Made by a program: the position numbers and the translations under genes. Positions 50,310 through 54,368 of a stretch of 64,000 nt of DNA are shown here, in pieces. The number at the start of each line of letters is the position of its first letter. Within the stretch, counting starts at the first letter, position 1. Source of the DNA: Spirochaetota bacterium. GTDB taxonomy: Bacteria; Spirochaetota; Spirochaetia; Treponematales; UBA12059. A model generated the notes under the pieces. It did no database searches. It saw only the letters and a list, made by a program, of their open reading frames with translations, and was not told where the DNA came from. Location of the stretch: contig JAKLDN010000008.1 in assembly GCA_022703505.1 (NCBI GenBank), positions 62,001 through 126,000 of the forward strand. Direction: 5' to 3'.

Positions 50310-51374
50310 CTATCGCCGTAGCACCATCTCCTCGATCGTCCGGATCTGGGAGCGGTAGAGGTTCGCGATGTTCGAGCCGTAATCCGCGATCAGCTGGAGC
50401 ATATCCCGGGGCCGCTCGTGCTCGTCCACCCCGTTCACCCGGTCCCCCGCGTCCCCCAGGCCGGGCATGATGTAGGCCATCTCGTTCAGGACCGGGTCCA
50501 TCCAGAGGGTGTAGACCGTGGCCTCGGGGATGGCCCGCACGACCCTCAGGGCGCCCTTCAGGGCGGAGATCACGTTGAAGACCTTGATGCTCCGGGGCTT
50601 CACCCCTAGGTCCAGGAGGTACTTCACGACCGTCACCAGGCTCCCCCCCGTGGCGTTCATGGGGTCCGCGAACAACAGGTCCTTACCGTCCATGTCCTCG
50701 GTGCGGAAATAGGAGCGGTCCAGGTCCAGGACGTACTCCATGTTGTTCTCCACCTTGGTGTCGTCCCGGCTGATCTTGAACAGGGCGAAGGGGGTCACGT
50801 ATCCGGAGGAGGAGTATTCCTGGATCTCCTTGGACAGGATCATGGAGGGCAGGAGGGCCCCTCTCAGCATGACGCACATCACGGTGTTTTCGATCCGGTC
50901 GTCGATATTCGGGATCTTGTGGACCGCGTAGTTCTGGACCGGAACCGTGACCGGCGTGGACACGATCAGGTGGTTCTTGTTCTCGCTCCGGGCGCCGCCG
51001 AAGGCGAGGTTGAACAAGAGCTCGTAGGCCCGCTGGATGTAGTAGACGAACTCGAAGCGCTGGGTCCGGGCGTCCCGGAGTTTGGCGATCAGCCGGCTGG
51101 CCTCCCCGTGGTTCTCCGAGGGGGTCACGAAGGAATAGACCTGGGCCCGGGGTTCAGCCTTGCAGAGTTCCTGCATCGCCCCGCCCATCCGGTTGTAGAG
51201 GTCGATGAGGACCTTCTCCTCCCGCCGGCGCTCGTCCGCGCCCTTGGCGTGGGAGAGGATGTTGAAGCTCACCATGGCCTGCCGGTAGAGGACGTCCAGC
51301 TGGCCCAGGAATTTCTGGTCCCCCTCGGTCAGGTAACCGTCCAGGTCCTGGGCCTTGAGGATGACGCGGTTCAT
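50310..51374 (-). CDS. Uracil phosphoribosyltransferase with N-terminal extension
   Basis: 354 residues. The C-terminal ~210 residues are UPRTase: PRPP loop [34 protein letters not shown] and the uracil-binding [16 protein letters not shown]. UPRTase makes UMP from uracil and PRPP. The ~135-residue N-terminal helical extension ([20 protein letters not shown]…) is absent from ordinary UPRTases of ~210 residues and is not recognised. Start overlaps the pduL-like stop (ATGA). Confidence 0.85.
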
Positions 51375-51949
51375 AGGACCACTTCGCCTTGGGCTCCGTT
51401 CCCGATCCCCACGGCGTTGCCCTCGTCGAAGTCCAGGTGGCACTCCAGGGCGTAGGCGGCGTTCACCCGGCACACCACGTTGTCGAAGGTGGCCCCCCGG
51501 TCCCCGCCGGCGTGGAGCTTGACGATTTGCTTGTCCTTGACCCCGAAACGCTCGGCGCTGGCCGGATCGAAGTGGATGTGCCGCTTGGCGATGATGAGTC
51601 CCTGGGTCTTCCTCACGGAGCCCGCCGGTCCGACGATCTCGAAGGCGGCGCTCCCGTCCAGCTGGCCGGACTCCCGGCAGGGCAGCTCCCGGAGACCCAG
51701 GCGGAAGGCGTCGCTGGCCATGACCTCGCACTGGGTTTCCTTGCGTTCGGGCCCCAGGATGCGGACACCCTCGAAGGAACCCTTGGGTCCCTTGATGGTC
51801 ACCGTTTCCTCGCAGGCGAACTGCCCGGGCTGTAGGAGGTCCTTCATCTTGGTCAGCTGGTGGCCCTTGCCGAAGAGGATTTCGACGTCCTCCCGGCACA
51901 TGTGGACGTGGCGGTTGGACAGGTTGATGAGCACCTTGTTCTCGGGCAT
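51371..51949 (-). CDS. PduL-type phosphate acyltransferase (phosphotransacylase)
   Basis: 192 residues. PduL zinc-ligand histidines lie in [18 protein letters not shown] and [30 protein letters not shown] and [10 protein letters not shown] are also family-typical. The enzyme interconverts acyl-CoA (acetyl or propanoyl) and acyl-phosphate, often replacing Pta in acetate formation. No microcompartment genes are nearby. ATG after GGAGG; coupled to the UPRTase gene. Confidence 0.92.
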
Positions 51950-52060
51950 GGGAGTCCTCCTGGAACGCGGCCCCGGCCTCGGCCGCGGCGTACGTTGATG
52001 ATTGTAGTGTCGTTCCAGAGTAAACGCGAACGGATCGGAGGTCAAGCCGATTCGGGGCGC

Positions 52061-52594
52061 CTACCGCTCCCGGAGCTCCCTGCCCAGGAGCTCCGCGACG
52101 GCCCCCGCCTGGTTCCGGACCGCTTCCGCCCGTCGGGGCGGGTCCGCCCGCACGGCCAGGTCCCGCCGTCCGTCCAGGACGAGGCCCCAGGCTGCCCAGC
52201 CCCTGCCCCCCTTGCCCACCAGCCGAGGATACAGGGAGCGGAGGTCGTCCGCCCGGGACGCGAAATCCTCCGCGGTGGGGCGGTCCACGGTCTCCACGAA
52301 CACGGCCTCGACCTCCTCCCAGTCCAGGTCGAAGGACCGGGGAAAGGGCAGGATCCCGAAGCGCCTCCGAATGATCCGCCGCGCGGAATCCAGGATCCAG
52401 CTGTCCTCGGAGAGGGCGGCCAGCAGGCACACCGCGGTCCCGGCCAGCCAGAAGGGGTCGCCGGATCCCAGGGAGCCCAGGGCGAAGGCCGCCGCGAAGG
52501 CGGCCTGGGCCGCACGGACCAGGGGGTGCACGGCCAGGTCGACGCGGCCCGGGGCCTTCGGGCGCAGGACCAGGGGAGGCGAGAAGGGGCTCAC
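52061..52594 (-). CDS. Small membrane protein of unknown function
   Basis: 177 residues with two adjacent membrane segments (~28–65, [16 protein letters not shown] and [16 protein letters not shown]) followed by a soluble ~100-residue C-terminus. No family recognised. The GTG start overlaps the chemoreceptor stop (GTGA), so it is co-expressed with it and could be an anchor or partner of that soluble receptor (inference only). Confidence 0.6.
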
Positions 52595-54219
52595 GGCCGT
52601 TCCCGCCCGGCAAGCTCCTCGGCCGCCCGGGATGTTCCGAGGACGGCGAGTCCTTTGTCGAAGGCGTCCCGGAGGGCTTCGTCCCCCCGGGACAGGAGGT
52701 AGACCACCGAGAGTTCGTGGCCCGTCTCGAAACAGGCCTTTACGGTCCCGGAAAAATAATTCTCCGACAGGTAGGCGCCCACCAGGCGCTCGGTGATCGC
52801 GCAGTCCGCCCGCTCCCAGATGACCGCAGCGAAGGCTTCCAGGTCGTTCGCGGTGGTCACGACCTCGCAGCCTGTCCCCCGCAGGCAGTCCACCACGTAG
52901 GAGCCCTCCTGGGCCGCCACCCGCCGGCCCGAGAGGTCCGGAAGGCCCCGGAACGAGGCTGTCCGGGATGTGTGGGCGAAGACCGCGGGCCGGAAAACCC
53001 CGAAGGGCCGGGTCGGGATCACCGGCTTGTCCGCCAGGCCCTGGTTGGGCCAACCCACGTTGGCGACCACCCGGACCTTGCCGGCCAGGAGGTCCGACAG
53101 GGCCTCGAAGAACTGGCCGGGGTGGAACTCCGGAACCAGGCCCGCCGCCTCCAGGGCCCTTCGGGCCGTGTCGATCGCCTTGCCCGCGGACTGGCCGCCC
53201 TGGATGTGGACCCACGGCGGATAGCTTACGTCGTGGGCTATCGGGATCGTCTCGCCGCAGGCCCGGGAGCCGAAGAGGTCGGCGAAGGAAGTGGCCATGT
53301 GGTTGATCTCGGTCTTGACCGCGCCCGCGGCGGACTGCACGGCCTCGGAAGAGGCTTTCTGCCGTTCCAGGTTCCCCCGAACCAGGGCGGAGTTGTCGTT
53401 CAGGAGGCGGGCCGCCTCGGACAGGGCCGTCATGGATCGGGCGATGCGTCCGGAGCTCTCCTTCTGCCCCTCCAGGGCCCCTCGGATCGAGCGCATGTTG
53501 GAGGCAGCCCCGGCGACCGCGGAGGCCCCGGAGCCCAACTCGTCCCGGGCGTGGGCCATGCGGCGGGACAGCTCGGCCTTGCCCTGGGCCATGGCGGCAA
53601 GACCCTCGTCCGCGGAGCCCATGCCCGCCCGGAGGCCCTTGAGCAGGCCCGCTGCGGTGTCCGTCAGGGCCCGGCTCTTGGCCGCCAGGGCCTTGACCTC
53701 CGTGGCCACCACCTTGAAGCCTCGGCCGTGGACTCCCGCCCGGGCGGCCTCGATCGCGGCGTTCAGGGCCAGGAGGTTGGTCAGCTCCGCGATCTCCTCG
53801 ATGGACTGGAGGGCCTCCTCGATGCGGTCCGCGCTCTCGGCGACCCGGCGGAACATAGATATGAAGAGCTCGAACCGGGAATCCATATCCGCCAGGGCCT
53901 TGGTCCCGTCCTCCACGGCTCCCCGGGCGCTGCCCACCGAGGACTCCGCGGCCTCCAGCCGGGCATCCGCCTCCCCCGCCGCCCCGGAGATGCCGGAGAT
54001 CCCGCCGTTCAGGGACTCCAGGTCCGCCTCGATCGCCCGTAGGGAATCCAGGTTCTTGGAGTTCGCGGCCAGGCTCTCCTCGAAAAAGTCCGTGGTGAGG
54101 TCCGACTCGATGGACAGGGACCAGACGTGGTCCGCCAGCACCCGGTACCGGGAGCGGAGTTCCTTGAGGAGCGCGGCCGCCTGGGCCTCTAGGGGCTGCC
54201 CTCTGGATTCCTGGGACAT
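52591..54219 (-). CDS. Soluble methyl-accepting chemotaxis protein with C-terminal solute-binding (SBP_bac_3) domain
   Basis: 542 residues with no membrane segment or signal peptide. Residues ~50–330 are helical and contain the MCP hairpin signature [20 protein letters not shown] followed by [19 protein letters not shown]. From ~338 a family 3 solute-binding fold begins ([20 protein letters not shown]) and runs to the end ([34 protein letters not shown]). Sensor domains normally precede the signalling hairpin and SBPs are periplasmic; here the order is reversed and both parts should be cytoplasmic, so it may sense an internal amino acid-like ligand. ATG after GGAGG. Confidence 0.82.
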
Positions 54220-54368
54220 GCCGATACCTCCGCGGGTATGGGGGACAGAGCTCGTGGATTCCGGACTGCGGCGCAATCCGGAACCGCCTACGATTATTCC
54301 ATGGTTTTGCGGTATAGGCTAGGGCTGAATTGACATCCTGGCGGTATTCGTCAAGCTCGAGGTCCGCC

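Follow-up and report, generated by a model that had tools for sequence, protein, structure and literature searches.

A membrane-free chemoreceptor of spirochetes with a C-terminal flytrap sensor that probably reads a chemical inside the cell

Overview

In the window (the whole stretch of spirochete DNA that was analysed, 64,000 nucleotides long), one gene encodes a member of the methyl-accepting chemotaxis protein (MCP) family whose signalling hairpin is followed, and not preceded, by a family-3 solute-binding domain of the Venus-flytrap type. This architecture is conserved over 47 sequences, the hairpin tip and the pocket segments contain invariant residues, and no membrane segment is seen by hydropathy. 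It is quite likely that the protein, P0001, is a soluble chemoreceptor that gauges the intracellular level of a small molecule. As far as we are aware, ligands have been established for few cytosolic chemoreceptors. A compact and well-predicted soluble domain, with an invariant pocket that recurs from one relative to the next, is thus a good target for ligand screening, and the identity of the ligand would reveal the internal signal that steers these spirochetes. Receptors that are free of the membrane are also suited to structural work linking the sensor with the kinase tip.

The gene and its domains

The features of the receptor gene, all of which lie on the minus strand, are as follows.

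52591..54219, minus strand: soluble chemoreceptor gene (P0001), 542 aa; ORF translation and Pfam
54227..54231, minus strand: ribosome-binding site GGAGG, 7 bases 5' of the P0001 ATG; direct reading of the sequence
53272..54192, minus strand: antiparallel MCP signalling hairpin, residues 10-316; Pfam MCPsignal and AlphaFold secondary structure
53650..53829, minus strand: kinase/CheW-contact tip, residues 131-190; invariant columns in the 16- and 47-sequence alignments
52645..53250, minus strand: family-3 solute-binding (Venus-flytrap) domain, residues 324-525, cytosolic by position; Pfam, phmmer, AlphaFold and structure comparison

The frame is complete, with its start ATG at 54219 and its stop codon at 52591-52593, and the frame, strand and coordinates given in an earlier note on this DNA are correct. 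Pfam matches MCPsignal at residues 119-267 (E 6.4e-26) and SBP_bac_3 at residues 327-533 (E 2.2e-5), the latter with 24.7 bits, just below the Pfam cut-off of 26.4. When PDB chains were searched with phmmer, residues ~61-305 matched MCP hairpin structures, while residues 323-531 matched the flytrap sensor 3h7m (8.4e-16) as the best by sequence. P0001 carries the MCPsignal domain and the conserved tip that define the MCP family, and two long antiparallel helices (43-160 and 166-316) are present in its model with moderate confidence. Hairpin columns 101-300 contain zero indels among 16 aligned relatives.

Between P0001 and its nearest relative, the congener L026, dN/dS is 0.20 in the hairpin and 0.11 in the flytrap, which indicates purifying selection on both. 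The values are 0.13 and 0.13 against L027, and 0.38 and 0.42 against L030; the flytrap is not always the slower-evolving half. A scan with a strict consensus found the methylation motif in 4 of 16 members and not in P0001. CheR-mediated adaptation of P0001 is, therefore, doubtful, and adaptation may be weak or may proceed via another route. TlpD is likewise said to be without canonical methylation sites (PMC12871147).

Membrane segments and cellular location

Membrane segments were assessed solely by Kyte-Doolittle hydropathy. The highest mean over 19 residues in P0001 is 1.01, which indicates neither a signal peptide nor a membrane helix. The earlier note had placed the hairpin first and the solute-binding domain last, with no membrane segment, and both the Pfam order and this hydropathy maximum bear it out. 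It had also named an upstream start that adds transmembrane helices as a finding that would overturn its reading. Such a frame-extended start was ruled out by the hydropathy of the 33 in-frame codons 5' of the ATG, which add no hydrophobic stretch. Only one relative of 47 (L140) has such a stretch (mean 1.84) in frame ahead of its likely start. In another, L031, a stretch of 1.85 at residue 485 lies within the flytrap domain.

A classical transmembrane receptor has two membrane helices around an N-terminal sensor, whereas the sensor of P0001 is C-terminal. A true periplasmic binding protein has an export signal and a transport partner; P0001 has no hydrophobic leader, its signalling hairpin comes ahead of the flytrap, and its adjoining genes were not seen to be kept outside the genus. 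Since the flytrap follows the cytosolic signalling hairpin without a membrane crossing, it should be in the cytosol. The proposal in the earlier note that a ligand-binding domain is placed in the cytoplasm is thus supported by the domain order and the lack of a membrane segment. As the flytrap forms the tail of a membrane-free receptor, the sensor probably reads an intracellular chemical.

Distribution among the Spirochaetota

After the removal of exact duplicates and of sequences contained in one another between collections (L166 of genome G515 among them), 48 distinct loci were counted, that of the window included, and all of them belong to Spirochaetota. Hairpin and flytrap share one frame in 47 of the 48. 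The remaining locus, L071, starts at a contig end after the hairpin and is, for that reason, left out of the 47-row alignment. The tip pattern missed three further rows (L134, L159 and L163), the sequences of which show a diverged tip. An origin by sequencing or assembly fusion is ruled out, as the fusion recurs in 47 of 48 distinct loci.

The genome samples (39, 392 and 394 genomes, and family f1) overlap, and their counts are not additive. In family f1, to which the window's genome belongs, full-length relatives occur in 10 of 23 genomes (the window's own counted) with 44-83% identity to P0001, and a profile search repeats this count. Beyond these ten, the search of 39 genomes yielded, in G005, a piece of the hairpin at the end of a contig. 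In a sample of 392 phylum genomes, nine reach 224.9 bits or more, after which the score drops to 66.7 bits for the next match; the border of the family is sharp. In the class sample, the receptor is present in 42 of 394 genomes, about a tenth, and in 26 of 132 genera. These genome searches were confined to Spirochaetota by construction. Outside the phylum, one wide scan of the genome_contigs collection was made with two exact peptide patterns, which looser relatives elsewhere could escape. It returned 123 stretches, 17 of which encode a relative, all in spirochete-named records.

Both MCPsignal and SBP_bac_3 are matched in all 16 members of alignment A3 (Pfam, E <= 0.01), and likewise in L078, L079 and L080. 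The distance from the hairpin tip to GWPN is 223-235 residues in the 17 distinct rows that have both. In a tree of 20 rows, 10 rows from f1 genomes form one clade with L060 (support 100/99), which is consistent with mostly vertical descent; the deeper branches are without resolution, and L066 is a very long branch.

Two controls were considered. In the three other SBP_bac_3 proteins of the window's genome, all histidine kinases, the sensor comes first and the domain starts at residues 48-58 of the frame, unlike in P0001. In each of 21 generic solute-binding loci (L081-L101), the two longest listed frames, where these reach 250 codons or more, lack the EAARAG tip motif. A plasmid search with the flytrap half returned 8 records, the best place having 31.4% identity, and none of these is annotated as an MCP.

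Structure of the sensor domain

An AlphaFold model of full-length P0001, built with 10 aligned sequences, consists of helices at 10-38, 43-160 and 166-316 and an alpha/beta domain from residue 324. Its overall confidence is modest (pLDDT 66.5, pTM 0.38), and the arrangement at the hairpin base is, therefore, not trustworthy. Modelled by itself with 17 aligned sequences, the sensor half is predicted confidently (pLDDT 88.4, pTM 0.81). For this half, the top Foldseek hits are 3h7m, an ancestral arginine-binding protein and further flytraps for amino acids, including the GluR0 core. By VIA-align, the best match is a glutamine-binding protein (Z 24.2 over 208 residues, 2.3 A), followed by 3h7m (Z 23.5), and the top Z values tie within 1. 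The best structural matches of the sensor half are thus glutamine- and arginine-binding flytraps. The two-lobed fold of family 3 is evident, and the profile match of P0001, slightly short of the cut-off, is accompanied by higher SBP_bac_3 scores in relatives (52.1 bits in L079, 34.0 in L080 and 33.8 in L078).

Conservation and the predicted binding pocket

Three motifs of the flytrap, also on the minus strand, make up the predicted pocket.

53212..53235, minus strand: pocket motif 1, H-D-x-x-Y-P-P-W, residues 329-336; H329, D330, Y333, P334, P335 and W336 invariant in 47/47
53044..53061, minus strand: pocket motif 2, N-x-G-W-P-N, residues 387-392; N387, G389, W390, P391 and N392 invariant in 47/47
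52780..52791, minus strand: pocket motif 3, residues 477-480, with Glu/Asp where family-3 proteins have the amino-group-binding acid (Asp in the AncQR alignment)

The alignment of 16 sequences contains 49 invariant columns: the tip has 19 of them, the flytrap 29, and residues 1-130 a single one, the start Met. With 47 sequences, 29 invariant columns are left, of which 13 belong to the tip and the other 16 to the flytrap. The latter comprise the invariant residues of motifs 1 and 2 together with G346, F409, Q437, S440 and N458. T476, V480 and G481 are identical in 46 of the 47 rows, with one gap or difference, and position 477 is E in 35 rows, D in 11 and a gap in one. Over the 47 rows, mean column identity reaches 0.72 for the tip and 0.525 (~0.53) for the flytrap, compared with 0.35 for the two hairpin arms. 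Sensor domains have been described as rapidly evolving (PMC9973260), and against that description a flytrap as fixed as this one is unusual. The predicted pocket and the tip are conserved to about the same degree, which suggests one conserved cytosolic ligand.

The nature of this ligand was approached by profile alignment with AncQR, an arginine/glutamine-binding protein. HDxxYPPW aligns with TEATFPPF of AncQR, and QxGS with QLGS, the next four residues of which are missing in the receptor family. Motif 2 sits where canonical family-3 proteins have the carboxylate-binding loop and its arginine: N-x-GWPN and the residues that follow it align with the TITEER loop, and the Arg of that loop falls on a variable position. 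The acid at 477 aligns with the Asp of VVTD. In the lysine/arginine/ornithine-binding protein, R77 holds the carboxylate, D161 holds the amino group and D11 contacts the basic side chain. We take the TITEER Arg and the VVTD Asp to be the corresponding carboxylate (R77) and amino-group (D161) contacts; mutants of the R77, D161 and D11 residues occur among the structure-comparison entries. P0001, thus, does not have the canonical amino-acid pocket of family 3 with its carboxylate-binding Arg, and GWPN stands in the loop's stead.

As the canonical arginine is gone and the amino-group acid is retained as Glu/Asp, a standard amino acid is an improbable ligand. It seems that the contact to an amino group or cation was kept while the contact to a carboxylate was lost. 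The loss of the Arg is accompanied by two fixed acids (D330 and E/D477) and by fixed aromatic residues (Y333, W336 and W390), and for this reason the pocket may bind a metabolite that carries an amine or a positive charge, for instance a diamine or polyamine; this is a hint and not a proof. An enzyme of the cyclohexadienyl dehydratase type (5jos, AncCDT) was considered and tentatively set aside, since its catalytic glutamate would align with a near-invariant valine.

The loss of the arginine could also be read in another manner, as such a loss may occur in a solute-binding fold that has ceased to bind a ligand. The flytrap would then be a structural cap that stabilises the base of the dimer, or a module that docks a partner protein, and its conservation would come from folding or docking. 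The poor prediction of the hairpin base and linker leaves some room for such a role. The invariant residues are, however, not scattered across the domain and align with the cleft segments of AncQR, while for a docking module one would sooner expect conservation of an exposed patch. A domain that binds no ligand is, therefore, considered improbable.

Proposed mechanism

We infer the dimerisation, the array membership, the cytosolic ligand and the direction of signalling. P0001 would dimerise via the MCP hairpin, the tip of which would dock CheW and CheA within the chemoreceptor array. At the base of the hairpin, opposite to the tip, the C-terminal helix would lead through a linker of ~7 residues into the two-lobed flytrap. 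Binding of the ligand would close the flytrap and shift the C-terminal helix, and the activity of CheA at the tip would change as a result. It has been reported for two species that soluble receptors build two-layer arrays, with the sensor domains presumed to be in the middle layer (PMC3964821). A flytrap placed C-terminally at the base of the hairpin would suit the middle of such an array.

The genome of the window has 24 MCPsignal matches (two being pieces of one frame), nine matches to the CheW domain, two of CheA type and four to CheR. With two CheA-type and nine CheW-domain matches, more than one pathway is possible, and the receptor gene is located outside any che cluster. P0001 could, thus, be an MCP-like sensor of another CheA pathway, one that governs gene expression, a second messenger or surface behaviour in place of chemotaxis. 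Against this, the tip has the residues usual in array receptors, and chemotaxis receptor genes are commonly unlinked to che genes. The chance of such a pathway is accordingly held to be small.

If P0001 is indeed a chemotaxis receptor for an internal ligand, a wider reading can be advanced, one that we regard as speculative and more probably wrong than right. The Spirochaetia would share an ancient receptor of the internal state, in which a family-3 flytrap moved to the cytosol, lost its arginine and had its HDxxYPPW/GWPN pocket re-tooled. It would respond to a single conserved metabolite, probably a cationic one such as a diamine or polyamine, and swimming would follow an internal pool as against outside concentrations. 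Were this true, the fixed pocket, with a conservation close to that of the tip, would mark it as a rare receptor whose ligand stayed unchanged across a class.

The downstream gene and the neighbourhood

The gene that follows the receptor is the second one on which the earlier note had dwelt.

52061..52594, minus strand: small membrane protein gene, 177 aa, overlapping the receptor stop as GTGA

Its product has no Pfam or NCBIfam match. Relatives of it are present in 24 of 39 related genomes, and it is thus a conserved protein. The earlier note had suggested that this two-helix protein may tether the receptor to the membrane. The GTGA overlap suggests translational coupling, and the pair is kept across the three genomes of the genus (G000, G001 and G002), the only ones in which the two genes adjoin; five other f1 genomes with copies of both (G006, G010, G012, G013 and G020) have them on different contigs or 57 kb apart, and within f1 the membrane protein is present in 8 of 10 genomes with a complete receptor versus 10 of 12 without one (G005, with its fragment at a contig end, set aside), so the two do not travel together and a receptor held at the membrane in this way is very unlikely. 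A tether as a general feature is rejected, and the gene is probably not a part of the receptor system.

No gene neighbour is common to most members beyond the genus, while a few sets of two or three loci have one in common; for L078-L080, the neighbourhood covers only ~1.5 kb on each side of the match. Consequently, the neighbourhood gives no hint of the ligand. The next frame downstream of the membrane protein gene, at 51371-52045 of the window, resembles by eye what we take to be a PduL-type phosphotransacylase.

Comparison with known systems

The plan of a soluble receptor with a C-terminal sensor is known. At least 17 types of sensor domain C-terminal to the MCP hairpin have been counted in Pfam, CZB being the commonest by far, and 23.3% of receptors are given as cytosolic (PMC7390727). 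C-terminal ligand-binding domains are also described in archaeal class V receptors (PMC9680633). All of these share the domain order of P0001. SBP_bac_3 may be one of the 17 or more types; Pfam-based lists may, on the other hand, miss P0001 because its SBP_bac_3 score is under the cut-off. The earlier note had spoken of a reversed architecture. The order itself is as it stated, whereas the order is not the unusual part, as C-terminal sensors are known in a minority of soluble receptors (PMC7390727), with TlpD as the example of solved structure; the type of sensor is.

TlpD resembles P0001 in being membrane-free, with the hairpin before the sensor and a C-terminal sensor at the hairpin base, and differs in that its sensor is a four-helix CZB bundle that binds zinc and not a two-lobed flytrap (PMC12871147). 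In keeping with this difference, no CZB domain, which a TlpD-type receptor would have, was detected in P0001 by Pfam or NCBIfam at E <= 1. CheWS of Treponema denticola is another spirochete protein that senses an intracellular compound, S-adenosylmethionine (SAM), while anchored in the array; unlike P0001, it is a CheW-type protein with a CheR-like domain and no receptor (PMC10653840).

The flytrap sensors of histidine kinases (3h7m and BvgS VFT2), which, in sequence as well as in structure, rank with the closest solved relatives, have the same fold and are likewise fused sensors rather than parts of a transporter. They are extracytoplasmic, lie ahead of the output domain and are anchored in the membrane. 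In the open-access papers searched, supplements aside, no description of a cytosolic MCP with a C-terminal solute-binding domain was found, and the many known soluble proteins of this kind that would have spoken against the earlier note have, so far, not come to light there. While the plan is known, the type of sensor, the receptor family and the fixed pocket look new.

Other chemotaxis genes of the genome

Further chemotaxis genes were observed in this genome. L019 (1042-2022, plus strand), a second MCP that lacks a membrane segment, is a frame of 327 codons with no recognisable sensor domain. The locus L010 (G000:C10, 1021-2724, minus strand) matches MCPsignal at 250-407 and, after it, sCache_2 at 431-568 at the C-terminal end. 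Its sensor follows the hairpin, as in P0001, and its hydrophobic segments are confined to the N-terminal region. Cache domains are normally extracytoplasmic. Lastly, at G000:C7:186651-189360 (L115, L119, L126 and L127), a CheA-type gene is followed by a 499-aa frame with CheW and CheR matches, which resembles CheWS as described for Treponema denticola (PMC10653840).
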